From NCBI GenBank assembly GCA_036939355.1, contig JALLAP010000116.1, positions 1-19,256 on the forward strand: DNA of 19,256 bases, given 5' to 3'. Below are positions 2,875-18,161 of the stretch, in pieces; position 1 is the stretch's first letter; every line of letters begins with the position of its first letter. The position numbers and the translations under genes are program-made. This DNA comes from Thalassiosira profunda (lineage: Eukaryota > Bacillariophyta > Thalassiosirophyceae > Thalassiosirales > Thalassiosiraceae). The notes beneath the pieces are model-generated. The model searched no databases. It saw only the letters and a list, made by a program, of their open reading frames with translations, and had not been told where the DNA came from.

Positions 2875-5464
2875 ATGTTGGATGCAGAGACCCCCGCGAC
2901 CTTCTTCCTTTGTCTTCCTCTCATCTTCCTCCTTTCAACAGCGACGGGCTCATCCAGTAGGATGCTGTTTCGACTGCCGCTGCTTCGAAGGCGCAACGCG
3001 GAGCTCCTCTTCCTCCTCCACTCGTTCCGTTCGACCCCCGCCGCAGCATTTATTGGGGCCGCCACCCCCGTCAGCGCATCGTCCACCTTTGGTTCAGTCG
3101 GCTCCGCCCCTCGGCCGTTCCTGCACCGCCACCAACACTCCCTCAAATCCACCGAGGAAGCCACCATGGTCGCCGAGAAGGGAGAGGACGCCTACACCTT
3201 CCTCGAGGAGGTGGAGTCGGAGGAATCCATCGCGTTTGCAAAAGGCGCAAACGAAAAGTGCCTCGCGCAGCTGGGGGATCCTAGCCGGAGACCTACAAAC
3301 GCGTGTTGGCAGCGCTGGAGAGCGACGAGCGGATCCCCCACGTGAGGCTGCTGGGGTACGACGAGGCGGGCGACATGCTGTTGTTCAATTTCTGGCGCGA
3401 TTCCAAGGTGCGTTTCTAGTTTTGTGCACATGATGTGTCTCTGAGTCTTCGCCTGAATTGCAATTCATCTTGCAGAACCCCAAAGGAATCTGGAGGAAGA
3501 CCACTTTGGCCTCCTACCAGTCTGATAGCACGGATTGGACCACTGTGCTTGATCTGGATGAGTTGGCCGAAAAGGAGGACATCAGCTGGGTATGGAAGGG
3601 ATATGTCCCTCTGTCTCGCTCCCTCGATGAAAAGTCGGGATACAAACCAGCCACGGACTCCTCGCCGCCCGAGGGTCGGGTGACCAGAGTGCTACTCAAT
3701 CTATCCCGGGGAGGCGCCGATGCCACCTATCTGCGAGAATTCGACCTGCTGACCGAGTCGTTTGTGGATCCGGATGGAGATGAGCAAGGGTTTTCTCTTC
3801 CCGAGGGGAAGACTCGGGCGAGGTACAAATCGCGCGACGTTCTGCTGGTCGGTGCCGATACCGGAGAAGGCTCGATGACCACGTCTGGCTATCCCCGTAC
3901 TGTCAGAGAGTGGAGGCGAGGCACAAAGATTGAAGATGCCCCCATCGTGTTTCAGGGAGAGAACACCGATGTGAGCTGCGGACAATACATTTATGATGAG
4001 ACTCATCGGGAGGGAGGGGCGATGTACGAAGTGCAAAGCAGATCGGTCAGCTTCTACGATTCCGTTTACAACGCGCGGAGTGATGAGTCCAAAGCATTCG
4101 TGAAGCTGGCAATCGACCCAAAGACCTCGCCCTCCTTCTTTGGACGCTGGCTGATTCTCAATATCAAGGAAGACTGGACTGACAATGGATCTGCGAAGAC
4201 CTTTAAGTCAGGCTCTTTGATTTACGTAGATGCTGAGGCCTTCTTTGAGTTCAGCAAGGCCAAAGAATATGGCGGCGAGGGCGCTGCCAAGGAGGCGGGA
4301 GCCAAGCTCGAGTATCACGTGCTGTTCGAGCCGACTGAGTCGACGTCGTATGCGGGCTACTCCACAACAAAAAACTTTCTGATACTGTACTCGCTGGATC
4401 ACGTCAAGGAGAAGCTGCAGTACTTCAGAATTGGTGAGGGTGGCGGGCCCTTCGAGTTGGTTGGAGGAGACAGCGAGGGAGCAATTCGATCGGCAAGCGC
4501 CAGTGCTGTCGACCCGAAGGACAGCGATCTGCTCTGGTTGACCGAGAGTAGCTACACTCAGCCCAGCACGATGTACCTGGCAGACGCCGGCAAATGCGCC
4601 GAGGACAAGAGAGAGCTGAAATCGCTTCCGCACATGTATGATTCTTCAGAGCTGGAGGTTACGCAAGGGTTTGCCACTAGCAAGGATGGCACCGAAGTAC
4701 CTTACTTCATGATCGCGAAGAAAGGGCTCGTTTTGGATGGCTCCACGCCCACTCTGTTGTACGGTTACGGTGGCTTCGAGATTTCCCTGGGGCCGCGCTA
4801 CATCACTACCGTTGGCATCAGTTGGCTGGAGAGAGGTGGAGTGTACGTTGAGGCCAACATTCGTGGTGGTGGCGAATACGGCCCCCAGTGGCATCAGAGC
4901 GCATTGAAGGAGAACCGAAACAAAAGCTACGAAGACTTCATTGCCGTGGGAGAACACCTCGTGGCGTCCAGAGTCTGCACACCCAAGACACTGGCTTGCC
5001 GCGGCGGCTCCAACGGAGGCCTGCTGACTGGCAATATGCTTGTGCAGGCACCTGAGCTGTTCGGAGCCATCCATATCGCAGTCCCGTTGCTTGACATGCA
5101 GAGGTACCACAAGCTCCTCGCAGGCGCTTCTTGGATGGCCGAGTACGGGGATCCTGATACTGATGACTGGGAAAACTTTCTGTACAAGTACTCTCCATAC
5201 CACAACATCGACGAATCGAGGGAGAAGTATCCCAATGTGCTGTTGACCACGTCCACCAGAGACGACCGCGTGCACCCGGCCCATGCCCGGAAGATGGTAA
5301 AGAAAATGTGGGATCTTGGTGAAGGAAAAGAGTGGCCGGTCTTCTACTATGAGAATATCGAGGGTGGACACGGCGGAGCCGCGGATCTGAAGCAATCGGC
5401 TTTCATGACATCGCTGAGTTATGATTTTATGTGGCGTGCGTTGACCACGTCCTTGCCCAAGTAG
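2875..5464 (+). CDS. S9A prolyl-oligopeptidase-like serine peptidase (one intron; 1-nt frame break in exon 1)
   Basis: This is an alpha/beta-hydrolase peptidase of the prolyl oligopeptidase family, expected to cleave short peptides. Exon 1 (to 3407) reads EDAYTFLEEVESEESIAFAK and then RVLAALESDERIP...NFWRDSK. Exon 2 (3476-5464) starts NPKGIWRKTTLASY. The catalytic triad is intact: Ser at 5009-5011 in GGSNGG, Asp in DDRVHP at 5261-5266, and His at 5369-5371 in GGHGG. The family motif NIRGGGEYGPQWH is also present. The frame changes between 3283 and 3288: upstream ends GDPS and downstream resumes as ETYKRVL, consistent with one missing base. Possible starts are 2875 (adds a hydrophobic signal-like segment FFLCLPLIFLL), 2962, and 3166 (ACCATGG, no presequence). 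With the missing base restored the lengths would be about 840, 811 and 743 aa. The extra N-terminus, including AAAFIGAA, looks like an organelle presequence. Confidence 0.85.
3408..3475 (+). other. Spliceosomal intron in the peptidase gene
   Basis: This is a 68-nt phase-0 intron, AAG|GTGCGT ... CATCTTGCAG|AAC. Removing it joins NFWRDSK to NPKGIWR, the expected S9A sequence (family form NFWxDxxNPRGLWR). Confidence 0.9.
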
Positions 5465-5533
5465 CATGGGGTCGGGGGGAGAAAGGGCAGGTGATAGCCA
5501 GGCACGGATTGTCCGGCAACATTGTAGCGCTGT

Positions 5534-5755
5534 TTAGCTGTCATCATCGTCATTCATGATGTCGGCAATCTCTGCCAGCCACGCGTCGTCATAGTCCACG
5601 TCTTCTCGCTGCTTTGGCTCTTCTGGTGGCAATCTGACGATGTCTTCAAACACTCCTGGTACATCAGTAGGTTGTGCATCAATCAGCTTCATCTGTTCCT
5701 CGGGCCGTTCATCCAACAACGTCGCATCGACCTCTGATTCTATCGCCAGATTCAT
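5534..5755 (-). pseudogene. Displaced 3' end of the histidine-phosphatase-like gene, cut off by the mobile element
   Basis: This is an open frame of 73 codons, acidic, ending DIMNDDDDS. Its apparent ATG (5753-5755) lies inside the first four bases of the element's left terminal repeat, so it is an accident of the junction rather than an ancestral start. From CTG at 5746-5748 (minus-strand reading) onward the codons continue the frame of the host gene interrupted at 11264. Deleting the element and one AGAT copy gives DNATD directly followed by LAIESEVD. Composition matches the acidic tail on the other side (TVVDDTDTDN). It could be transcribed from a promoter in the terminal repeat, but no evidence for this is seen. 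A separate small gene (for example an APC13-like protein) was considered and is less likely. Confidence 0.8.
5748..5751 (+). repeat. Left target-site duplication AGAT
   Basis: AGAT directly abuts the left inverted repeat and is repeated at 11264-11267 next to the right one. Keeping a single copy restores the host reading frame. Confidence 0.75.
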
Positions 5756-6014
5756 GCTGCCACCGCGCGAGCAAGAGGAGGTGGTTCAAAGCTTGAATTT
5801 TTAAATGTAAAAATAGCGCGCATTGCCCCGTGCTTTGGCCGCATTGCTGGGTGCGAGGATGGAGCTCGCGCCCCTCGCGGACGCGTGTCGGGCGTCGGGC
5901 GGTGGCCTAGGCGTGTCAAACATCACGAATGGTAGTGGGGATGCCGGCGCTCCGACGTCGATAGCGGCGGCGCGGCCGAGTATCCAGCATGGCGCGGACG
6001 GTGGGCGGCGGACG
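5752..6014 (+). repeat. Left terminal inverted repeat of the element
   Basis: The outer block 5752-5805 matches the reverse complement of 11210-11263 at 49 of 54 positions, with the first 21 identical. The inner block 5928-6014 matches the reverse complement of 11000-11086 at 81 of 87. The intervening 122 nt are much less similar. The AT-rich stretch 5794-5815 (GAATTTTTAAATGTAAAAAT) is mirrored on the right and may hold the promoter. Confidence 0.9.
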
Positions 6015-7499
6015 GGACGGCAGAGGAGCAAATCAGCCAAGGTGCTGGAAAACGAGGAGTTTGAGGCCGCGGAGCTGGCCCAGAAGCGTGCATCAGCCCC
6101 CTCCAGGCGCGCCCCATCAGGGCCGAAGAAGCGCGGCACGAAGGGGCCGCCCAACGCGGCTGCTCGCGCGCAGAATCACGTCGCGTCGGCGGCGCAACGG
6201 CCTGCGGAGTCGACGAATGAGGACGCGGAGGATGCATCCGAGGCCGAGGAGGGCACCGAGAAGCCGCCCTCCTACTCGGACCACTTCAAGCGCCGCAACC
6301 GCAAGGAGCAGGAGGAGCAGTGCAACTTCTCGGACCACTCGTCCATCAACGAGTGGATTCCTGCGCACAGCGGCAAGGGCCAGCTCAACTGCCCCCTGGC
6401 CTTGATCGCCGAGGCCAGTTCCAACAAGGCCAAAGCCACTGTGGTCCGGGAGTGGCGGATGAAATCGCACAATCAGCAGGTGGCGCAGATGGAGGAGATC
6501 CACGACAGGCTGAACGAGGCGGCGCGGCAGCAGAAGCAGCTGAAGGGCGCGGGCAAGCGCAAGGGGAAGAAGCGCGGCTCCTACAACAAGACTTCGGCAT
6601 CGAAGGCGACGGGGATGCCGGGGAGGAAGCTGAAGGACGACAAGGCGGTGTTGATGGGTGCGGATATGGATTCCGACGAGGAGGAGGCGTGGTTGAACGT
6701 CTTGGAGGCGCAGGAGCGGGTGAGCGACGCCGCAGACGAACGCGGCAGGAAGAGGAGGGAGAAGAATGCTGCCGAGCGTGAAGAGGAAGCAGCTGAGGTA
6801 CGTGTCTCTTTGTGCTCGTGCAATCTTGCATGCAGTGTTGGTATCTCACCTCTTGCTTGCTGTCGACCACGCGCAACATCACGCGCTGCACTCCAGCCAA
6901 TCAGTGGGCTCCTTGGCGGCGGCGAGAACGCCGCATCGACTTCTGCCGCCGCCAACGCGCTGAAGAGGAAGGGGAATCGCCGGCGCACGAAGGATGCTGC
7001 GACGGAGAAGCGCCACCTGAACGATCGGGTGACAAACAAAGTCATTGACCAGGCGGAGCAGGGCGCCATGAACGTGGCAGCGAGGACGCGGCCGGCGGAG
7101 GGCGTCGATATGGAGGGGGCGTACACGCACACAATCACCATGACCGTGACCAACGTTGCGCGCCCCGACCGAAACGGAGGCGGCAACGCTCAAAATAGGC
7201 AGTGGGTGAGGGAGCAGCCCACCGTGACAATTGTCAATCCTGGAGGTCAGCAAGCGCTGGCGTGTGCCTTCCCAGCGCTGCAGGAGGCAATGCAGCGCTT
7301 GGGGAATGCAACCGAGGTCAACGGGTCGTCGCCGATTCGATTGGGCGACAACGCCACGATGGTCACAAACGAGGAGCAGTACGCGAGGCACCGGGCGACC
7401 AGGATTCGGAAGAAGGCGAAGACGACCGTGCCGGAGAAGGACATCGAGGAGAACCTCGGGGAGGCCATGGGGACGCAGGCGGAGGCGTGGGGGAACTAA
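5859..7499 (+). CDS. Element accessory protein, basic and coiled-coil, unrecognised
   Basis: The open frame gives 546 aa from ATG 5859 (MELAPLADACRASGG), or 513 aa if the probable intron 6798-6896 is removed. The first 50 or so residues are encoded by the terminal repeat. A low-complexity Ala/Arg and acidic region (EDAEDASEAEEGTEKPPSY) follows. Next comes a more ordered stretch (SSINEWIPAHSGKGQLNCPL ... VVREWRMKSHNQQ), a helical region rich in Gln/Glu, and a strongly basic nuclear-localisation-like patch (KRKGKKRG). Then come an acidic segment (MDSDEEEAW), a charged coiled coil and a second basic patch (KRKGNRRRTK). I recognise no DNA-binding domain. Being the second gene of a transposon, a role in end binding, nuclear import or regulation of the transposase is a reasonable inference. 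The start is uncertain, because the ATG conserved between the two repeats (5989) is out of this frame. Confidence 0.65.
   Translation: MELAPLADACRASGGGLGVSNITNGSGDAGAPTSIAAARPSIQHGADGGRRTGRQRSKSAKVLENEEFEAAELAQKRASAPSRRAPSGPKKRGTKGPPNAAARAQNHVASAAQRPAESTNEDAEDASEAEEGTEKPPSYSDHFKRRNRKEQEEQCNFSDHSSINEWIPAHSGKGQLNCPLALIAEASSNKAKATVVREWRMKSHNQQVAQMEEIHDRLNEAARQQKQLKGAGKRKGKKRGSYNKTSASKATGMPGRKLKDDKAVLMGADMDSDEEEAWLNVLEAQERVSDAADERGRKRREKNAAEREEEAAEVRVSLCSCNLACSVGISPLACCRPRATSRAALQPISGLLGGGENAASTSAAANALKRKGNRRRTKDAATEKRHLNDRVTNKVIDQAEQGAMNVAARTRPAEGVDMEGAYTHTITMTVTNVARPDRNGGGNAQNRQWVREQPTVTIVNPGGQQALACAFPALQEAMQRLGNATEVNGSSPIRLGDNATMVTNEEQYARHRATRIRKKAKTTVPEKDIEENLGEAMGTQAEAWGN
6798..6896 (+). other. 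Probable intron in the accessory gene
   Basis: The donor is GAG|GTACGT, a perfect match to consensus, and the acceptor is GCACTCCAG|CC. It is 99 nt, phase 0. It can be read through without a stop, but the 33 residues it would encode are unusually Cys-rich (SLCSCNLACS, ACCRPR) in an otherwise nearly Cys-free protein, which supports splicing. Confidence 0.65.
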
Positions 7500-7542
7500 A
7501 GTTTGGGCATAGAAAGAGATATCAATGATAAATATCCATACT

Positions 7543-10500
7543 TTATTCATCATCGTCGTCGTCGTCCTTCCGATTGTACCGCTCCTTCGCTCGCACCGAC
7601 TCTGATAGCTTGAACAGATGATGCTTCATCAGCTCTACGCGCGACTCTTTGGAGGAGAGCCCTTTCTGGCGGTGCTTCTCCTTGATTGTTTTCACTGTGT
7701 CCTCCTTCAGCGTCGGATTCTTTGCAAAGACGGCCGCCCTCCATTCCACAAGATGCTTGATGATGTCGCCCTTCGGCTCCTCCTCGCCCTTCTTCAGCCG
7801 CTTCTTCACGTCCATCTTCACGCGATCTCTCTTCTCTTTCTCCTTCTCGGCCGATGCCATCTGGTTGACCTGTGCCATCAGCTTTGCCCTGGTGAAGACG
7901 CGGGCCTCGAGCTCCTTGGCCGTTGTCGACGTTGCAAGAATGATCTCCTGGTCCAGCTTCTCCTGGATGCTCACCACCGTGGTATTGATCCTGGTCAGAT
8001 CGACCACCTTCTCGGACCGGGACACGGAGCCGTACCTCTTGATGTACCATTCAGTGAAGTACTTCATGGTGCGGTCCTTTCCCTCGCCAGTGATCGACGA
8101 CAAGATGAGAGCGTGCAAAAGTCCTCCGCTGGGCACTTGAATGATATCGTCTCTGCAATCCTGCGCGACAGATTTGCCCTTCAGCTTGATGCGCGGCGCC
8201 GCACCAGGACTCCACAGCCGCATATCATCGATCTTCTCGGCAATTTTGTAGTAGGGGCAGGCGGGAGAGTTGCTGATCACATCATGTGTCCGTGAGCGGT
8301 TGGAGGCAGATTTTGCATCTTTGTCGTGCAGCGTTCGGTGCGCTGCACTCTCTCCAGCGGTGTCGGGGAGACCCGCGGTGACAAGCTCCATATTGAGGTC
8401 CATTCCGGGCCGGTAAACCTTCCCAAGAGGCGCGCGGACGTCCATCACGCAGTTCTCGACGCTGTTGTCGTGGTAGATGGGCATGCCCTGTGATGTCAGC
8501 AAGGTAAAGATGTGGTTCTCATAAATCACTCTCTGTGCCGGCGAAGCGCAGTGATACCACCTCAACAAGTCAGACGCGAGGAGCATGTAATCCACCTTGT
8601 GCGTGACAGCAAAGAGCGGCATGGCGAATCGGAGGGCAGAGAAGAAGTAGTCCACGCTCCCGCGCGGGCCGAGGCGCTCGGCATTCGTCATCATCTTTGC
8701 AATGGCGCCGATTCGGATCTCCAACAGCGCGAGTGCACAAATGGCATACTCCTGCGCTCTCTCCAGCATGAAATCGTTCACCTCCACCGCCGACACGCCC
8801 CGTTTCACGTGGTCTTTGAGATTCTGAGCGGCTCGGGCGTAGTTGGCAAGAAGGCAGAAGGAATAGTCTCCTTGCCGCTGCCTCGGATCGGTCGGCTTGA
8901 GGATCCACTTCACCTTCTGCAGAGAATCCCGGAAGGCGGACCACATATCGGTGAGAAATTCCTCAAACAACTCGCCACTGGCATTGAGCAGCTTCATGAT
9001 GGTGTGGAATCCGCCAGGCGAGACAAACATTGTATCGGGATAGCGCCTGGCGTCGGGGCCGAAGTCTTCTGCATCCTGTGCAAAAATCCGACGCAGATCG
9101 GCAGCTGGCTTGCCGTCGCAGCCGGATCCAATCATGACCTCGGCAAGCGGGGCCTCGGCGTTGGAGGGATATTTGTCCTTCTCCTTCCTCCATTGATTCA
9201 TCTGCGCGTCCTTCTGCCCCACCATGTAGTCCGCCAGAGCGCGGAGGGAGCCCGTCTTCGCGAGATCTTGATGCACTGCCTCCAACCGTGCATTGTTCAT
9301 TTTGTAGCGATTGCTTTTGCTGAGCTCGAATTCGGCAGAGCTAGATTTATCTCCGCCCGCGTCCAGCTCGTCCTCCTCGCCCTCGCTCTCGTCCTCGCCT
9401 GCAAATGCATCTGCATTGGTGACAAAGTTTTGCACTCCACGCCCACCAATCTCATTTTCGGCGTCGGTGGGCATTTCGTTGCGGGCCAGGACGGCCGATT
9501 GTCTGATTGCAGTTTGTTGCGCGACCGCGGCACGTGCAGGATGGCCCTCCTCCATCAATTGCTCCATTGCCTTGCGCGTTTGCTGGTTCACAATGCGATC
9601 GAAGCGAGGAATTTGGACGGCAGTGGTTTGGTTGTCGAGTGATAGCTTCTCCCGATTGTCCAGCACAAATTGGATGTTCTCCAGGACGCACTCCGACAGA
9701 CGTTCGTGATCCACGTCCTTGATCCCCACCACGTCGCCTGCAAGCTTGTCCATCGCCTCCTGGGACAGATCTTTGATTGCATCTTCCCACACCACCGTCG
9801 GCTCGCGCGAGATTCGGTTGTTTGGGTCGTCATCCCGGTAGAAGCCAGCCCTCTTCAAGTCGCTTTCGGTCACCACGACAACCTTGATCAAAATCCACTG
9901 ATCATAGGACGCCTGCCGCCCCAGGATTTTGAAGCCCATGTTGTCGAAGAAAAGCAGGACCAGATCCCGAGGAGCCACTTTCAACCCCTCCTTCATTTGC
10001 TTCAGCGCCTTGTCCGCCCGCTCCTTCAGAGAGAACGACCGACTCGGCGCCAAGTTGAAGGCCGAGCAAAGATCTCTGAACTCCCTCGTGGACCGCTGCC
10101 GATTCAACAGCTCGCCGTACATCAACTGAAAGTATCCCGGCTTCGTTCGGAGGTTTTGGAGCAGCAGATCCGACGCCGCGAGCGAGGACAGGTACTTCTT
10201 CTGATAGTCCTGCGTGTCGCGGTCGAGGAAGAGGGAATCATTGAACTCGGACATCCCCATCACCATGCTGAGCAATGCGCGGTCGATCGGGAACGGCTGG
10301 CGGCAGCGAAATTCCAACAGCTCGCGAGGTGACATCATCGGCAGGTGCTTCTGCAGAGGAAGGCTCGCCTTCAGCAACGGCCGATGCAGAGTTGCAAAGA
10401 AGTTGGCAATCTCAATCACGGCCCGGTTGGGATCGAGCACCTCGACCTTCCCCTCCTTCATCTCCGTCAAGACGAACGTGGACGACACGATCTTCGTCTC

Positions 10501-11025
10501 GTAGTTGCCGTCGGAGTTCTGGTAGCCCCTCCCCGAGAACAGCACCATCCCCTCATTCTCGGGATGGTCCTTCAATTCCGCCATGTGCTGCTCCTTCAAC
10601 CACTGGAGGGGCAGGTTGTTTTTTGTGTACTCCCTCGGATTTTCCCCGCCGATGCTCCGGATCGATTGCGCGGTAGAGGCATCGCCCCCGCGGATAAAGT
10701 CACTCTGCGTCGAGTAGCGCTTGCAGCCGTCGACGGGGCACTGATGGAGCTTGGATCCGCGCTCTGTCTGGGACTTTAGCGCGCAGAATGTGCACAAAAC
10801 ATGCTGGCACGGGCGCACCACAACGCGATCAGAGCCGCGCCGAAGGACGAGGCTGCACACCTGACACTCCTCACCGCCCTCCGGGGCATCCTCGGAGCCG
10901 GAGGAGTCGCTGGGGGGCCGATCTCGGCGCCGCGTCTGGCGTCCGCTGCTGCCGGACCGCGGGCGCTTGTGAGAGTGTCTGTGGGAGGCGCCACCGCCGC
11001 GTCGGCCGCCCGCCGTCCGCGTCAT
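7543..11025 (-). CDS. Putative transposase: RING finger plus DUF6589-like core
   Basis: This is a 1160-aa protein from one open frame, starting at ATG 11023-11025 inside the right terminal repeat (MTRTAGGRRGGG, A at -3). Residues 1-50 are basic and Ser-rich. A C3HC4 RING finger follows with C54, C57, C73, H75, C78, C81, C96 and C101, the last pair as CPVDGC. The core carries LLFFDNMGFKILGR (D361), an acidic linker (about 544-557), MIGSGCDGKPA (D637), SPGGFHTIMKLL (669-680), a helical region VDYFFSALRFAMPLFAVTHK (791-810) and DNSVEN (E857). The C-terminus is a lysine-rich coiled coil ending RKDDDDDDE. The FDN, GGFH and tyrosine/histidine helical motifs recall DUF6589-type proteins from transposons of fungi and other eukaryotes; this is from memory. 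D361, D637 and E857 are candidate acidic catalytic residues of an RNase H-like fold, by inference only. RING could act as a ubiquitin ligase or in protein contact. Confidence 0.75.
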   Translation of the reverse strand: MTRTAGGRRGGGASHRHSHKRPRSGSSGRQTRRRDRPPSDSSGSEDAPEGGEECQVCSLVLRRGSDRVVVRPCQHVLCTFCALKSQTERGSKLHQCPVDGCKRYSTQSDFIRGGDASTAQSIRSIGGENPREYTKNNLPLQWLKEQHMAELKDHPENEGMVLFSGRGYQNSDGNYETKIVSSTFVLTEMKEGKVEVLDPNRAVIEIANFFATLHRPLLKASLPLQKHLPMMSPRELLEFRCRQPFPIDRALLSMVMGMSEFNDSLFLDRDTQDYQKKYLSSLAASDLLLQNLRTKPGYFQLMYGELLNRQRSTREFRDLCSAFNLAPSRSFSLKERADKALKQMKEGLKVAPRDLVLLFFDNMGFKILGRQASYDQWILIKVVVVTESDLKRAGFYRDDDPNNRISREPTVVWEDAIKDLSQEAMDKLAGDVVGIKDVDHERLSECVLENIQFVLDNREKLSLDNQTTAVQIPRFDRIVNQQTRKAMEQLMEEGHPARAAVAQQTAIRQSAVLARNEMPTDAENEIGGRGVQNFVTNADAFAGEDESEGEEDELDAGGDKSSSAEFELSKSNRYKMNNARLEAVHQDLAKTGSLRALADYMVGQKDAQMNQWRKEKDKYPSNAEAPLAEVMIGSGCDGKPAADLRRIFAQDAEDFGPDARRYPDTMFVSPGGFHTIMKLLNASGELFEEFLTDMWSAFRDSLQKVKWILKPTDPRQRQGDYSFCLLANYARAAQNLKDHVKRGVSAVEVNDFMLERAQEYAICALALLEIRIGAIAKMMTNAERLGPRGSVDYFFSALRFAMPLFAVTHKVDYMLLASDLLRWYHCASPAQRVIYENHIFTLLTSQGMPIYHDNSVENCVMDVRAPLGKVYRPGMDLNMELVTAGLPDTAGESAAHRTLHDKDAKSASNRSRTHDVISNSPACPYYKIAEKIDDMRLWSPGAAPRIKLKGKSVAQDCRDDIIQVPSGGLLHALILSSITGEGKDRTMKYFTEWYIKRYGSVSRSEKVVDLTRINTTVVSIQEKLDQEIILATSTTAKELEARVFTRAKLMAQVNQMASAEKEKEKRDRVKMDVKKRLKKGEEEPKGDIIKHLVEWRAAVFAKNPTLKEDTVKTIKEKHRQKGLSSKESRVELMKHHLFKLSESVRAKERYNRKDDDDDDE

Positions 11026-11263
11026 GCTGGATACTCGGCCGTGCTGCCGCTATCGACGTCGGAGCGGCGGCATCCCCACTACCATTTGAGCCACCCGTCC
11101 TGTTTGGATGTGCGGCGACTTCAGACGGAGGCGCCCAAGCGAAGATCCGGGTGCGTCTCGGACAGGGTATTTGCAGCCAAAGCATGCAGTCTGTACGGCG
11201 ATATTTTACTTTAAAATTTCAAACTTTGAAGCACCTCCTCGCGCTCGCGCGGTGGCAGCATGA
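11000..11263 (-). repeat. Right terminal inverted repeat of the element
   Basis: This is the inverted counterpart of 5752-6014. The inner block (11000-11086) begins 177 nt from the element end, against 176 nt on the left. It contains the start codon of the putative transposase and an AT-rich patch (11201-11223). It also supplies the last 18 codons and stop of the interrupted host gene. Confidence 0.9.
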
Positions 11264-12993
11264 AGATCTGTTGCGTTGTCTGTATCAGTGTCATCCACGA
11301 CAGTTGTGTTTTGTTCAGCAGCGATATCTTTCTCCTCCCCCAATTCAGCCACAGGTTCAATCGCAACGATTGTTGAATTGAGTGAATGCTCATCGGCAGC
11401 AGTACCAGTCTCTGAACTCGTTGCATTGAGAGCTTCATTGCTAGCGTCAACAACAACATTTGTTGCATTTTCCTGCGTGATTGCAACTTCTTCCGTATCG
11501 CCGCCACCACCAAATGCAACTGTAGCAACCACAGCTCCTGCCACAGCAGCGCCTCCAATTCCAACGGTGCCAGTATCGAGGGAATCTTGCTTAGCATCGC
11601 CCTCTTTCAGTTGCATCTTCTCTTCTCGCTTTCGTTGTCGTTCCAACTCTTTCTCCCGCGCTTCCTTCGCCCGCGCCGCTTTGGCCGCATCAGCTTCGGC
11701 CTTCCTAGCAGCGGCCTCCTCTTTTTGTTTCTGCCTCTTTATTTCCAACGCCTTTGCGGCCTCCTTTCGTTTTGCTTCTTCCACTTTCCTCTCTTCTTCT
11801 CTCTCCTCTTCGTACTTCAGGTCTTTGACGTTTCTGAGAAGGTCCGGATTCTCTCTCAGTTGTTTCAGCTCTGCCCTTCCGCGTTCAAGGATATCAAAGT
11901 AAGTTTGTGATGGTGGCCGAGACGCCAATGCATTGATCGAATTGTAGTCCACATTGCACCGTATTTCTCCTGGGCAAAATTGCAGCTCGTGAACTCTATT
12001 CAGTGGTATCCCGGCGATTAGGCAACTCAACAGAGCCGGGCCGGTTCCATCAGGAAACACGACGAGAACAGTGTCACCTGAGTATAACGTCTCCAGCACA
12101 CTCATCAAATTAGTCAATCTGACCACTTGATCCGAAAGGGTCTCGGCGGGCGTTCCATCTTCATTTGGAGGTGGCTTGCCTCCTTTGCCATACTGCCCTG
12201 CCTCATCCACATCGAGGGCCCACACAGCCTCCTCTGTTGCATTCAGCGCCGATCCGTCCCATCCACCGATCGCTCGTGGGTCCGCATAGTTGAACTCTGG
12301 CACGAGCCGATCGCGCCCTACTCTCAGCTCCTCGCCGACGATGTTTGCCGAGTCAATACACGCAGCAGCCAGACTGTATCGGACCACTGTAGGGTTCGAT
12401 CCCGTCGATTTGAGATACCTGCACGCCTCTCGGACCTGCGCCTCGCCGAGTTCCGACAGAGCCGCCTCACGATTCGTCAAGAACAACGGATTGGTCGACC
12501 AAATGTCATCCACCTCCAGCAGACTCGCCCCGGCCCTCATGAAATGATACGTGTTCAGCAGTGGATCCTTGCAGGGAAATCGGACCAACCCTCTTGCGTC
12601 TGCTCTGTCGGCAGATCCGAAGGCAAAGGAGATGGATAGCGCACTGCCCTCGAGGAATGTTCGTCGATCTTGCTGTTGTTTGCATTGTGTTTGGTGCACG
12701 CCCGACGAGGCGTATTTTGTTTGATGCATCTTCATCTCCTGTCCCTCATTTTGCGTTTGGTGCACCTCCTTTTCATCATCACTGCTGCTAGACCGAGCCG
12801 CGAGGAATGCCCCCCTCTTCTTTGCGCCCCATGGCTGAGAAACCAACAAGGAATGCGTTCTGCAACCATCGGTGCACGAAGAAGGCCGGACGGTGCACCC
12901 ACTCCGGAGGGAACACGCAGTGGGCGCGAGGGAGGCCGAGGGCCCGAGATACACCGACGCGAGAAGGACGGAAAGCAGCGCGGCTACAACCAT
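11206..12993 (-). CDS. Plastid/thylakoid histidine-phosphatase-like protein, 3' end replaced by the element
   Basis: The frame gives 595 aa from ATG 12991-12993; the frame upstream offers only GTG. The N-terminus is an ER signal peptide (MVVAALLSVLLASVYLG) followed by SASLAP, close to the ASAFAP plastid motif. Three HQT repeats follow, then a twin-arginine signal (DRRTFLEGSALSISFAF ... ADA) suggesting Tat export to the thylakoid lumen. The core has TYHFMRAGASLLE, WSTNPLFLTNREAALSELG, AETLSDQVVRL and VVFPDGTGPALLSCLIAGIP, as in phosphoglycerate-mutase/histidine-phosphatase-like proteins of diatoms. The usual RHG motif reads MRAG, so the catalytic histidine appears to be missing and activity is doubtful. 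A long charged coiled coil, a membrane helix (IGGAAVAGAVVATVAF) and an acidic region follow. Host codons end at 11264. The last 18 residues (HAATARARGG...) and the stop come from the element's repeat. The original would have been 647 aa. Confidence 0.85.
   Translation of the reverse strand: MVVAALLSVLLASVYLGPSASLAPTACSLRSGCTVRPSSCTDGCRTHSLLVSQPWGAKKRGAFLAARSSSSDDEKEVHQTQNEGQEMKMHQTKYASSGVHQTQCKQQQDRRTFLEGSALSISFAFGSADRADARGLVRFPCKDPLLNTYHFMRAGASLLEVDDIWSTNPLFLTNREAALSELGEAQVREACRYLKSTGSNPTVVRYSLAAACIDSANIVGEELRVGRDRLVPEFNYADPRAIGGWDGSALNATEEAVWALDVDEAGQYGKGGKPPPNEDGTPAETLSDQVVRLTNLMSVLETLYSGDTVLVVFPDGTGPALLSCLIAGIPLNRVHELQFCPGEIRCNVDYNSINALASRPPSQTYFDILERGRAELKQLRENPDLLRNVKDLKYEEEREEERKVEEAKRKEAAKALEIKRQKQKEEAAARKAEADAAKAARAKEAREKELERQRKREEKMQLKEGDAKQDSLDTGTVGIGGAAVAGAVVATVAFGGGGDTEEVAITQENATNVVVDASNEALNATSSETGTAADEHSLNSTIVAIEPVAELGEEKDIAAEQNTTVVDDTDTDNATDLHAATARARGGASKFEILK
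11264..11267 (+). repeat. Right target-site duplication AGAT
   Basis: This is the direct copy of 5748-5751, immediately outside the right inverted repeat. It falls in the host codons for Asp-Leu (GAT CT.). Confidence 0.75.
12684..12765 (-). repeat. Three imperfect HQT peptide repeats within the phosphatase-like gene
   Basis: Three copies read VHQTQ, MHQTK and VHQTQ in the protein, spaced about 30-36 nt. The underlying DNA (TTTGGTGCAC or TTTGATGCAT on the plus strand) is repeated as well. They lie between the plastid targeting segment and the twin-arginine motif. Confidence 0.7.
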
Positions 12994-13251
12994 CGTGCCG
13001 GCGGGCTCCTCGCGACCACCACCACCACCACCTGGCTTCACCCCGCCCGCGCCGCGGCCTCCCTCCTTGTTGCCGACGTCGAAGAAGACGAATCGGCTGC
13101 GCGCGGCCTAGAGTGAGTTACCTACGTCGTACTATAAGATGTACTTTACGAAGCCCCTGCCTGGCCAATCAAAATCCCATCACAACACTGCACCCCCCCG
13201 CCCAGCGTTGCGATTCAGAACATCGCCCCTCTCGGCCTCGCGCACATCAGC
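12994..13251. promoter_or_regulatory. Shared upstream region of divergent phosphatase-like and helicase genes
   Basis: These 258 nt lie between two divergent start codons. A CCAAT box is present at 13165-13169, 83 nt before the helicase ATG. A TATAAG sequence lies at 13133-13138, and a short CCA repeat lies near 13015-13031 on the phosphatase side. The assignment of these sites to either gene is inference. Confidence 0.4.
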
Positions 13252-15846
13252 ATGGCCACCGACCGATTTGTAATGCTCCTGCGATGTTGCTGCGTTGTTG
13301 CCGCCGCTCTGGGGGTCCTGGCAGTTGCAGAAGCCAGGCTCGAAACGGGTGCATCGGCAGAAAAGTTGATGCCACTGCCAGCCATCACATCATCACATGC
13401 GTCAATTGCAGGACTGCCACATCATCCATCACATACGTCGCATTTGCAAATATCATCCATCAGTCGTAGAGCAATGGCCCCTTTTTGCAAGGGCGCGGCG
13501 TTTGTAACCCCGCGGCCTTCCTCGGCAATCGGATACAATCGCGTTCCGAAGTGTTTGGAATGCCCGGATTATACCTCATGCAGCAGCACAGCACTGAGCA
13601 TGTCCCCAACGCCCTCGTCGAGGCAATCCTACTCCTCGCGGGGGAAGCGGACGCAACAAACACGCAACCGGGGCGCCAACGCGGCAAACCACAATCGCCG
13701 CGGACATTCTTTCCGACTGGAAAACAAGGACGGAACCACAAAAAGGCACAGAAAGTCGAACACCAAGCGGGCGCCTCGGTGGGAACGAGAGGGAGACAGA
13801 CTATATGCCGAGGTGACGAAGCAGTTGGATGCCTATCAACGCCATGCAGGGGAGGATGAGAACGCCAGCGAGGGCTTGCTGGCGCTTGCAAACAAGCAAA
13901 TAGAGAGTGCACAAGATGTGTGCGAGGCACTTGAGCCGTGGACGGCAACGGACGAGCAATTGGAGGAAACAAGAGCAAAGAAACCGGAGCCAACAACCAA
14001 ACCTGAAGCCTCAACAGAGAAACCAAAGAAGTCGCCTCCATTCCTGTGGGGATCTCTCCCCGTGGGGCCCGTCTTGGCGTCGCGCCTCCACGCCAGCCAA
14101 CGATCCTCCCCCACCTCCGTCCAGCGGGGGGCGTTTCCCATCCTCACCGCCGGCCACAGCAAGGGCAACAAAAAGGTGTCCACCAAACGAACGAATGCCA
14201 TCATCGCGTCGCCCACGGGTACCGGCAAGACGCTGGCTTATTTGCTTCCGCTGCTTTGTACGTCCCCGGGGGGTCAGAGCGGAGAGGGCGCGGGGGGCGT
14301 GCTGATTGTGACACCGACGATTGAATTGGCTTGTCAGATCCAGCGCGAGGTGGACGTGCTGTGGCCGCCATTGGAGGACTCTGGCAGTTCGTCGCTGTTT
14401 GTGGTCGGCGTTGATGATGTGGACAATGTGCAAGAAAGCTTGGACGATGAGGAGAGTATGAATCCCGGGAGAGTGACTCTGAAAGCATTGCAACATGCTC
14501 CGCTCATTGCTGGCACGCCCAAAATGCTTCGAATGCTCTACCGGGAAGCAGAGAGGATCGTTCGTGCTCCAGGTTTCGACCGCACAATAATATCCACCGA
14601 CGAACGCGCCACAGCCAAGGCGCTCCTGTCCAACCTCCGCGCCATTGTGTTGGACGAAGCCGATCGTTTGCTGCGCACCGAAGCTGTCGCGAGAGAGGCG
14701 ACAGAGCGAAAGCAGAGAAAGATTGCGCAACGAATAGTGGCCGAAGCCGAGGCCGCGGCCCTCGACAGCTACATTCCGCCGCCACCTGCTATGAAGAAGA
14801 GGAGGCTCAATATTGCACGGAATACTCAGACCGAGCTCCTTCTGCGCGATCTTCCGATACCTTCCCTGGCGGACGTTCAGATCATTTGCGCCTCTGCGAC
14901 GATTGGACGGACGATGCGACGACAATTGATGCAGATCCTCGACGCGCCGAGCGCCGACAAGGCAGCGACGCTCGTCACAGGGGACGAAGACGAGAGGGTG
15001 AAGAGCAAAGATGCGGAGAGGAGAAAGAGCGTATTGCTGCCAGAAAAGTTGAGGCATGAATTCCGAGTGGTTAACGAAGACTCAGAGTCTTCCAGCCATG
15101 AAGAGCTGCCTGATGATATGTCAACAGCAGAGAGGAACGAGGAGAGGAGAATAAAGGATACCATGAATACACTATGGGAAACCATGGCGACAATGGAAGA
15201 GGCGAAGCCAATCCTCATTTTCCCAGGAAGAGTGGGCGTGGAAAGCGTTCAGAGAGAGTTGTTGGCCCGCGGACTCGATGATGTTCGCACATTGCGGAAC
15301 CTCGATGGCTCGTCGCCCGAATCTGATCTCCAAGTGGAGACTGCGGATGCGGATCCTGGTGGCTGGAAGTCTGTCCCTGTTTACATCATCGGCGAACGCT
15401 TCGCTCGCGGGCTGGATCTCCCGGACGTGGAATACGTCTTCATGCTGTCTCCGCCGTCCAGCGCTGCAGGCTATGCCCACATGGCCGGGCGGACCGGTCG
15501 CAGTGGTCGCGAAGGCACGGCAATCACGCTTGTCCGGCCAAAGAACAATGAGGTGCAGCGATTGGCCGCCATCGCAGAAGCATTAGGGCTCAAGTTTGCT
15601 GCGTCTACATCTGGTGTGGCTGGAACGGAGAATGAGCAAAGCGACGTGCAGGATGGCAGCACGTCTCCAGAGACTGGATCAGATTCCGCAACATATGCCT
15701 GGGAGGACCTGTCGGAGACTGAGCTGGCAAAGATGAAGAACGCTGAGCTGTACGAGTACCTCACAAGTTGTGGTGGCACAATCAACAAACGAGCGAAGAA
15801 GGCGGAGCTGGTGTCAGCGATCCAGGAACTGCATTCTGGTGCGTAA
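13252..15846 (+). CDS. DEAD-box RNA helicase with C-terminal SAP domain, probably plastid-targeted
   Basis: This is an 864-aa ATP-dependent RNA helicase. Start ATG 13252 has A at -3 and G at +4. The N-terminus is a signal peptide (MLLRCCCVVAAALGVLAVAEA), then a Ser/His-rich stretch and GAAFVTP (residues 81-87), similar to the ASAFAP plastid motif. A basic linker follows. Helicase motifs in order: I, SPTGTGKT (323-327 GTGKT); Ia, PTIELACQI; Ib, GTPKML; II, DEAD at 468-471; III, SAT at 548-550; IV, ILIFPGR; V, ARGLDLPDV; VI, HMAGRTGRSGR from 743. Residues about 820-861 (ETELAKMKNAELYEYLTSCG) are a SAP domain, a nucleic-acid-binding helix-loop-helix. Insertions between motifs II and III and before IV are Lys/Glu-rich. 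Role: RNA remodelling, probably plastid rRNA or ribosome work by analogy. The gap between the signal peptide and GAAFVTP is long, so an unresolved intron is possible. Confidence 0.88.
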   Translation: MATDRFVMLLRCCCVVAAALGVLAVAEARLETGASAEKLMPLPAITSSHASIAGLPHHPSHTSHLQISSISRRAMAPFCKGAAFVTPRPSSAIGYNRVPKCLECPDYTSCSSTALSMSPTPSSRQSYSSRGKRTQQTRNRGANAANHNRRGHSFRLENKDGTTKRHRKSNTKRAPRWEREGDRLYAEVTKQLDAYQRHAGEDENASEGLLALANKQIESAQDVCEALEPWTATDEQLEETRAKKPEPTTKPEASTEKPKKSPPFLWGSLPVGPVLASRLHASQRSSPTSVQRGAFPILTAGHSKGNKKVSTKRTNAIIASPTGTGKTLAYLLPLLCTSPGGQSGEGAGGVLIVTPTIELACQIQREVDVLWPPLEDSGSSSLFVVGVDDVDNVQESLDDEESMNPGRVTLKALQHAPLIAGTPKMLRMLYREAERIVRAPGFDRTIISTDERATAKALLSNLRAIVLDEADRLLRTEAVAREATERKQRKIAQRIVAEAEAAALDSYIPPPPAMKKRRLNIARNTQTELLLRDLPIPSLADVQIICASATIGRTMRRQLMQILDAPSADKAATLVTGDEDERVKSKDAERRKSVLLPEKLRHEFRVVNEDSESSSHEELPDDMSTAERNEERRIKDTMNTLWETMATMEEAKPILIFPGRVGVESVQRELLARGLDDVRTLRNLDGSSPESDLQVETADADPGGWKSVPVYIIGERFARGLDLPDVEYVFMLSPPSSAAGYAHMAGRTGRSGREGTAITLVRPKNNEVQRLAAIAEALGLKFAASTSGVAGTENEQSDVQDGSTSPETGSDSATYAWEDLSETELAKMKNAELYEYLTSCGGTINKRAKKAELVSAIQELHSGA
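13391..13448 (+). repeat. Imperfect direct repeat in the helicase N-terminal region
   Basis: CATCACATGCGTCAATTGCA (13391-13410) and a similar 22-nt copy at 13427-13448 differ by one substitution and a few inserted or changed bases. They encode the Ser/His-rich segment between the signal peptide and the plastid-like motif. Confidence 0.5.
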
Positions 15847-15919
15847 GGGCCTTTGGCAGAGGAGAAGATGAAGAGTTACTATTATGATTGAAGCTGGGCG
15901 CTTGGTGTTACCAGCGCAC

Positions 15920-18161
15920 TCAGGCGCTCTGACGAGCCTTCTCCAACTCGATCTTCACGGAATGGAGCTCTCTCTTCAGCGCAACCTCACGGGAAATCCG
16001 CAGTTCTTGAGCCTCCATGCTAGCAGCGAGCTGGCGACCGAACGAAGATAGCTTGCTTTCACCGATTGAAATCACCTTTTCCAGCTCGTAGATCTTGTCA
16101 GCGTACGTGTTGGCCTGGTGGCTGATTTGTTGCTTTTGCGCAGTCAGAGTTTGGACGCGGCTGGTCAATTCTTGCAGCTTGGCCATCAAACGCTTGCCGC
16201 TAGAACAAAGAACGGATTGGTTGAGAACAGATAAAAGGAACAGCAACTGTCAAAGGCAAAGGAACTCACACCTCACGCTCGCTCGACACGAGAGTGCTGC
16301 ACTTCGCCGCGAGGTCCTCCTTCTCCGCAGTCAGCTGATCCAGGGTGGATTGATGCAGACGCGTCTTCTTCTCAAGAAGATCTTCGGCCTCCTGCCGCTT
16401 CATCTTCTCGCTCTTCGTCGATGCGCGCAGGGTCTCGCACTCCAATTCAGCCTCCCTCACCTTGTGCTCGGTCTCTTCTTGCATCTTCTGCTTGTCCTTG
16501 GCACACGATTCCTTCACCTTCTGGGCTTCCTCCTCGAGCTGCGGCATGCGAGTAGACAGCGCTCGGAGCCCCTCCTGCGCAGCGAGCAGCTTCCGCTGCA
16601 GCTCGTCCAAGACATTGGAGTGCTTGGCGTCCGTCTCCTTCTTTTCCAGCTCAATCGATGCGAGAAGTTTGCTCTGTGAAGACACATTGGTCTTCAGCTC
16701 TTGGTTGCACGCAAGGCCAACGTCCACCCGAGCCTCGGCATCGGTCGCTCGGTTCAAAAGCTCCTTAAGAGCGTCGCGGTGCTCTCGTTCCTTGCCGGCC
16801 AACAAACTCTCGAGCGCCGAGCAACGCTGCTCTGCACTCTGCAAATCCCTTTTGCACTGGGCACTGCCGCTCTCGAGGGTGGCGTTCAATCGACGCAGGT
16901 TGTCAACCTGCTTCTGTTGAGCAAGCACTTCTTCCTCGTGCTGCCCTTCGATGGTGGCAACAAGCTTTGCCTGTCCCTTGGACCAGCTCGATACTTGAGC
17001 CTTGTGCTGCTCCACCAACGTCTTGACCTCCGCTTGCAGGCCATTGTTCGTGGTCTCCAACTTGTGGCGGGCGATTTGGCTGTCGGCCAGCTTGTCCCTC
17101 GTCTCGGCCAGCTTCTCCTCGAGCTTCTGGCTCTGCTGCTTGGCACGGCGCAGAGTCTCCTGCAGCGCGAGCGTCGTCTCGGCGCTGGCCTTGGCCTCGC
17201 GCTTGGCCGAGTCAAGGTTCGATTGCTGCGTGCGAAGCTCTTCCGAGAGCTTCTCGACATCTCCTTGTTTCGACGTGAGCTGCGATTGCAGGCCATCGAC
17301 GGTCGACGACAGGTGGTTCGTCTGAGGATTGGAGACAGTGTGAGAGCATTGCGCATAACGAGAGTACAGCAGAGCGAGAGTTGTGCTTGCCTGTGTCCCA
17401 AGATCTGCGACCTCGGCCTCGAGCGCCCTTCGCTCGGAGAGATACTGCTCCGCACGCGAGTGGATCTCGGCGCGCAGGGCGCTCGATCGTTTGGCGTTGG
17501 CCTCGAGCGTCTCCACCGCTCGGGTCTTCTGGGCGAGGTCCGACTTCAACGCCGCCTTCTCGGCCATCAACGAGCGGGCCTTCTCGACGCAGGAGGACAG
17601 CTCCTTGCCCAGCGTGGCGACGCTAGCGTCTCGTTCAGCGATGAGCTTGTTGGCCTCGGCGGACTCTGCAGCGAGGAGATCGGCCTGTTGGTGTAACAGC
17701 GAGTTTTCGTCCTTGAGCTTGCGAACGAGTTGGGCCTGCTCCTCGGTCTTGCGAGTCTGGTTGATGACGCTCTTCAGCGGGTACCTCCTCGGCGAGGGCG
17801 CCGGTTTTTCCGTCCTCTCTTTGAGCACCTTGTCTCGCAATATCGCGTTCTCGGTGGAGAGACGGTTGGAGCGATTGGTCAACTCATCGAGGCATCTTCC
17901 TTGCTCGGATAAGAGCGCCCCCAGTTCGTCGATGCGGCCCTCGTAGACGTCGATTGCGGCGGCGTGCGCATCGGCGGCTGTGGTGGGGCGACTGCTGGCG
18001 TTTGCGAGCCCATTGTCGTTCGTGGCCGTGGTTGTTGAACGATCGAGCGGCGGCTGACTCTCGCCGTCGAACTCAGACGTCGTGAGTTGAATGCCCGGCG
18101 GACAAGACGCCCTCCTCCTCGACCGCCGTCGGCGTAGCGATAGACGCCTGAGGAAAGACAT
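15920..18161 (-). CDS. Long coiled-coil protein with one or two introns
   Basis: The start is ATG 18159-18161 (MSFLRRLSLRRRR); the upstream frame has only GTG. A basic, Arg-rich N-terminus precedes a disordered Ser/Thr stretch. From about residue 70 almost the whole protein is heptad-rich, charged coiled coil (EGRIDELGALLSEQGRCLDE, ENAILRDKV, and many E/K/Q/L blocks). With intron 16200-16269 removed it is 723 aa, or 700 aa if 17322-17390 is an intron as well. Exons then are 17391-18161, 16270-17321 and 15920-16199. The last exon (GKRLMAKLQELTSRVQTLTA) continues the coil. I do not recognise the family. A structural or tethering role (cytoskeleton, centrosome-like body, Golgi) is typical of such proteins, but nothing here distinguishes between these. 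Confidence 0.75.
16200..16269 (-). other. Spliceosomal intron in the coiled-coil gene
   Basis: This is a 70-nt intron with donor GAGGT|GTGAGT and acceptor TTTGTTCTAG|CGGC. Splicing joins SSEREV to GKRLMAK in frame (phase 2). Without it the frame stops at once (TGA 16266-16268). Confidence 0.88.
17322..17390 (-). other. Possible GC-AG intron in the coiled-coil gene
   Basis: The donor is CACAG|GCAAGC and the acceptor CCAATCCTCAG|ACG. It is 69 nt and phase 0, so it can also be read through. The 23 residues it would encode (ASTTLALLYSRYAQCSHTVS...) break the heptad pattern and contain the only NPQ turn of this part. The length equals that of the other introns here. Confidence 0.5.

Follow-up and report, generated by a model that had tools for sequence, protein, structure and literature searches.

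The window, that is the whole stretch of 19,256 nucleotides that was analysed (contig C116 of an assembly of 21.8 Mb in 1366 contigs), holds two convergent genes that lie within the 3' part of a host gene. This locus raises the question of whether the two genes form a mobile element and, if they do, whether that element fits among the eukaryotic DNA transposon superfamilies, of which Repbase has 23 or 24 according to passages of two sources (PMC10045372, PMC12730594). We find that the segment is very probably a cut-and-paste DNA transposon with two genes, belonging to a microbial eukaryote and intact now or until recently.

Ends, genes and insertion site

The window element occupies positions 5752-11263 (5512 bp), and the flank sequence carries AGAT directly outside both ends, at 5748..5751 on the left and 11264..11267 on the right, as a target site duplication. 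The 21-bp sequence TCATGCTGCCACCGCGCGAGC is present at 5752-5772 (+) and 11243-11263 (-) with 0 mismatches, and these are its only two matches in the window when up to 3 mismatches are allowed (200 shuffles gave 0). It forms the outer part of longer inverted arms (5751-5817 and 11198-11264; 67 nt, 85%), annotated here as terminal inverted repeats at 5752..5817 (+) and 11198..11263 (-). A subterminal inverted pair of 93 nt and 91% covers the starts of both genes, with the left copy (5928..6020, +) overlapping the 5' end of the partner gene and the right copy (10994..11086, -) that of the large gene. The large gene (7543..11025, -) is an open reading frame (ORF) of 1160 aa without stops that runs from 11025 to 7543, and we read its product as the probable transposase. 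The partner gene (5859..7499, +) belongs to an ORF of 558 codons that ends at 7499 and has its first ATG at 5859. The stop codons of the two genes are 43 bp apart.

Deletion of 5748-11263 yields a host ORF of 647 aa on the minus strand with its stop codon from 5534, compared with 595 aa when the element is in place and the ORF runs into it. The interrupted frame consists of a 3' end at 5534..5747 (-; 70 codons plus stop) and a 5' part at 11264..13041 (-). To the left of 5748 the matching frame is open for 70 codons and the other two for 12 and 1. The restored frame is consistent with insertion of the window element; taken alone, this test would succeed by chance about one time in three, and the 4-bp duplication and two-gene layout of two other copies, described below, are the stronger evidence. 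The preliminary description of this DNA had reported inverted ends opening with 21 identical bases, AGAT on both sides, an interior filled by two convergent genes and the return of a host frame upon removal of 5748-11263, all of which we recovered. Its span of 5748..11267 included both AGAT copies, which lie outside the element itself.

The interrupted host gene adjoins a DEAD-box helicase gene (13252-15846), whose protein has a leader with an AAF-V type motif that we take to be of organelle type, presumably indicating a plastid-bearing microalga. Two ordinary host genes are also present in the window, encoding an ankyrin-repeat protein (591-2801) and a prolyl-oligopeptidase-family protein (3458-5464).

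Other copies in the same assembly

Diverged copies of the large protein, at 29-33% identity, are encoded on contigs C1162 and C163 and at the cut end of contig C6. With the window element, this gives three complete copies that share the same convergent genes: C116 (5512 bp), C1162 (5777 bp, positions 3970-9746) and C163 (5703 bp, positions 10931-16633). The large gene of C1162 contains one in-frame TAG. All three begin and end with 5'-TC..GA and are flanked by 4-bp duplications (AGAT for C116, perfect GCTT for C1162 and perfect ACCT for C163); repeats of 3 bp or 5 bp fit none of them at the chosen ends. The fourth copy (L016:1-1556) is cut by the contig end and encodes 434 aa of the large protein. 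It retains one end only, the left, where ACAT stands before TCGGGG, the start of TCGGGGGGG.

The ends of C1162 and C163 share only the leading 5'-TC with the window ends, and the right ends of both are unlike their own left ends in the outermost 10-15 bp. Their present boundaries were set because TTCGGGGGGG is a left-end sequence common to three copies. Boundaries at the longest perfect inverted matches, which lie further in, were rejected as no direct repeat flanks them there. The left ends of C163, C1162 and C6 have a common 20-base pattern, and TTCGGGGGGGNNAGNGNAAC, the pattern taken from these three ends, occurs three times in the assembly, each time without mismatch and at one of these ends (with up to 1 mismatch allowed, its reversed control also occurs twice). 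Since the boundaries of C163 and C1162 were set after the sequence had been seen, we made a control with random anchors that required the same first dinucleotide, at most 19 bases of outward slack per side and offsets within 2. Exactly one solution was obtained for each of the three complete copies, whereas random right anchors (4000 trials per copy) gave any solution in 2.3-3.1% of trials and a solution starting with TC in 0.05-0.275%.

Further copies in the genome, with the same ends and a 4-bp duplication, had been named beforehand as the expectation for a cut-and-paste type transposon with terminal inverted repeats and a duplication of fixed length. Two complete copies and the cut one on C6 now accompany the window element, and the duplications GCTT and ACCT agree with that expectation, so that the type assignment draws on three independent complete copies; as for the ends, the expectation is borne out only in part, the leading 5'-TC being common to them and the remainder differing from the window ends. 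Short non-autonomous copies were not found, the left-end queries of C1162 and C163 matching their own element only.

An alternative without a mobile element, in which the pair are host genes of a duplicated or rearranged region, could appeal to the exact window end, which is single-copy in the assembly in that the left end matched the element's own two ends only (among the matches listed, with counts as lower bounds), and to two host-like genes elsewhere that encode a related RING. It is already contradicted by the terminal repeats, the matching 4-bp duplications, the occurrence of the same two genes on three contigs and the host frame that is restored on removal, and we consider it scarcely credible.

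The C163 copy lies between two related, divergent host genes (L014, about 1101-1900 and 8680-9440) so that host sequence forms a long imperfect inverted repeat around it.

The two proteins and a possible mechanism

The N-terminal part of the large protein carries a C3HC4 RING finger (10723..10866, -; ligands C54 C57 C73 H75 C78 C81 C96 C101). Every one of its eight ligand columns is covered by 15 or 16 rows and conserved in 13 or more of them; Pfam matches to the finger score under the curated cut-offs. In a PDB profile search only the RING region was matched, among the best 60 of 62 rows. A long conserved region contains the motifs FDNxG (D361), GCDGxP (D637), GGFH (H674) and VEV (E748). The invariant residues D361 (codon 9943..9945, -) and D637 (9115..9117, -) are candidates for the first and second catalytic aspartates, and E748 (8782..8784, -), also invariant, is the candidate glutamate and the least certain of the three. 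As 15 alignment columns are acidic in every covering row, these three were picked by position, as a guess. Hydrophobic segments that precede D361 and D637 appear to resemble the first and fourth strands of RNase H, and we infer a DDE/RNase H fold from the conserved acidic residues only. Third codon positions differ most in four of four comparisons between copies, as expected for genes kept under selection.

Pfam searches at E<=1 with 17 members of the family touched 21 families, none of them a transposase family; at E<=10 the proteins of C163 and C1162 matched no such family either. PHROGs gave no match and NCBIfam none above its cut-offs. Matches other than RING among the 17 members were weak and were set aside as chance, the best being Adeno_IVa2 (E 0.0095, 2 members).

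The preliminary description had called the large protein RING/DUF6589-like. The RING part stands, as a C3HC4 finger, and the DUF6589 part is unsupported, since the PF20231 profile matched 0 of 17 members at E<=1. A whole-genome search for PF20231 gave no signal anywhere, its 14 controls included, and so carries no weight. A comparison by hhalign with a profile of PF20231-type proteins (120 of the 226 found, short ones that cover the later part of PF20231 poorly) gave a probability of 0.1% over the whole length and at most 0.7% on five sub-regions, and HMM scores between the large-protein family and PF20231 proteins were not above those of shuffled sequences in either direction. In favour of membership in DUF6589, which would make this a transposase domain, the best hhalign result in two of the five sub-region runs pairs FDNxG with LDNVQ and GCDG with GGDG in the same order. 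Among the PF20231 proteins (P0022-P0141), the first motif, [ILVF]DN[VI]Q, is present in 82/120 and GGDG in 109/120, and where both occur they are 155-165 residues apart. The likeness is one of two Asp motifs that follow each other in the same order; the two alignments lack significance (P 0.079 and 0.19), and neither the whole-length comparison nor the shuffled controls favour a relationship; we regard such membership as improbable. The two PF20231 motifs could themselves be the two catalytic aspartates of an unrecognised nuclease or transposase.

The partner gene encodes 546 aa unspliced and 513 aa when a putative GT-AG intron of 99 bp (6798..6896, +) is removed. An intron, putative in the window and in C1162 and of 78 bp in C163, lies at the corresponding place in all three complete copies. 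The window and C163 partner proteins are basic (pI 9.3 and 9.6) and match nothing known in Pfam and PDB sequence searches, which also lend no support to an HMG-box reading. The partner had been described beforehand as unrecognised, and with no Pfam family at E<=10 it keeps that description, with its gene in each complete copy. In pairwise BLASTP, the C1162 and C163 partners match at E 1e-25 and are clearly homologous; the window partner is weakly similar to both (E 5e-7 over 56 aa with C1162; E 0.004 with C163). A whole-genome search with the window partner missed both at E<=0.01, and exon 1 of the C163 partner as query found the C1162 partner (E 1e-4) and missed that of the window.

On these observations we propose that the large RING protein would act as a DD(E)-type transposase, with D361, D637 and E748 as candidate residues. 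It would bind the 5'-TC ends, excise the element and join it to a target whose strands have a 4-bp stagger, after which host repair would create the 4-bp duplication. For the basic partner our guess is a probable role in binding the ends or the transposase. The RING may act in ubiquitylation or self-turnover, and the subterminal repeat pair that covers the two gene starts may provide both genes with matching promoters.

Relatives and comparison with known superfamilies

Two protein searches, each scoring the 8000 candidates that share most words, found 21 metagenome homologues of the large protein (40-53% identity over 39-99% of the window protein), none of which has a precomputed Pfam domain. 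The profile iteration among these searches returned 16 proteins, all of the same family and likewise free of precomputed Pfam domains. In a tree of 22 rows (P0019-P0021 left out; midpoint root, with a long-branch warning), a split with 100/100 support separates the C163, C1162 and C6 proteins from the other 19, the window protein and 18 from metagenomes, and the genome therefore holds two old branches of the large protein. The search pattern was fitted by 39 stretches in viral contigs and 54 in prokaryote species genomes, none confirmed as a relative, and no relative of the element was found in phage records. Among the titles and abstract starts listed for open-licence PMC papers no such element was seen, which is weak evidence of absence.

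Could the element nonetheless belong to a known superfamily from which it has diverged so far that profiles no longer recognise its core? The most likely one would be Chapaev/CMCT (EnSpm, Mirage, Chapaev, Transib, RAG1). The large protein has its C3HC4 RING N-terminal to the putative DD(E) core, and passages of PMC4411706 describe RING fingers in the transposases of two Chapaev subgroups and in RAG1; the 4-bp duplication also falls inside the 2-5 bp that passages of PMC12730594 give for CMCT elements. The same two sources (PMC4411706/PMC12730594) give a C(2)C motif between the second D and the last E as common to the CMCT group, whereas in region 637-900 this motif occurs in 0 of 15 full-length rows. 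The H(3-4)H motif of CMCT is absent from the window protein and was seen in 5 of 15 rows, where its position agrees only within the close pair P0012/P0014. CMCT ends are mostly 5'-CA..TG-3', in contrast to 5'-TC..GA in three of three complete copies here. The window family further differs in its convergent partner gene and in having no detected core similarity, with no transposase family in Pfam for 17 members at E<=1. We judge a CMCT origin possible, if on the unlikely side.

In MuDR elements, as in the window element, two genes converge and both ends carry matching sequence; the window element differs in that the Pfam matches of the 17 members (E<=1) include no transposase family. The C/DxxH signature of MuDR/hAT/P/Kolobok/Dada was found in 4 of 15 rows, at a common place only in P0012/P0014, and is missing from the window protein. 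For Ginger1, an integrase-type core would be expected to match Pfam, and none is among the matches of the 17 members. Excerpts of PMC10045372 give duplications of 4-10 bp for IS256/MuDR, a range that includes the 4 bp seen here, and of 4 bp for Ginger1, the same length. Harbinger duplications are 3 bp, and 0 or 2 bp in its relatives, according to passages of PMC12730594, as opposed to 4 bp here, and the Harbinger transposase domain is absent from the Pfam matches of the 17 members.

Repbase practice, as worded in an excerpt of PMC4455052, is to recognise a separate superfamily when repeated rounds of searching do not bring its transposase together with the transposases of another. The preliminary description had suggested that the element may be an undescribed superfamily. 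We detected no link between the core and any known superfamily and accordingly treat the transposon as a candidate new one, the chances that its core represents one being roughly balanced. In full, this reading describes a RING transposase unrelated to Chapaev/RAG1, with a convergent partner gene that has an intron, with 4-bp duplications and ends in 5'-TC, found in several genomes sampled by metagenomics, and with RINGs passed between transposons and host genes; we would put it at an even chance. If true, it would add one more superfamily in microbial eukaryotes and give meaning to proteins that are now called hypothetical. It would also provide a second example of a transposase with a fused RING, given that a passage of a 2015 paper (PMC4411706) states that RING fingers are encoded by no known transposable element beyond its Chapaev subgroups.

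Two host-like genes elsewhere in the assembly encode, at the N-terminus, a RING that is related to the one in the transposon proteins. The first, C909:8460-10121 (-) (L015:2461-4122), is a RING-only match of the window large protein, and its protein has a weak F-box-like match behind the RING (E 0.015). The second, C190:3117-3884 (-) (L026:3117-3884), was found through its RING with the C163 protein as query, and its protein has no such match at E<=1. On the new-superfamily reading, a RING common to the transposon and at least two host-like genes would mean that RINGs have been passed between transposons and host genes; either the host took up transposon RINGs or the reverse took place.
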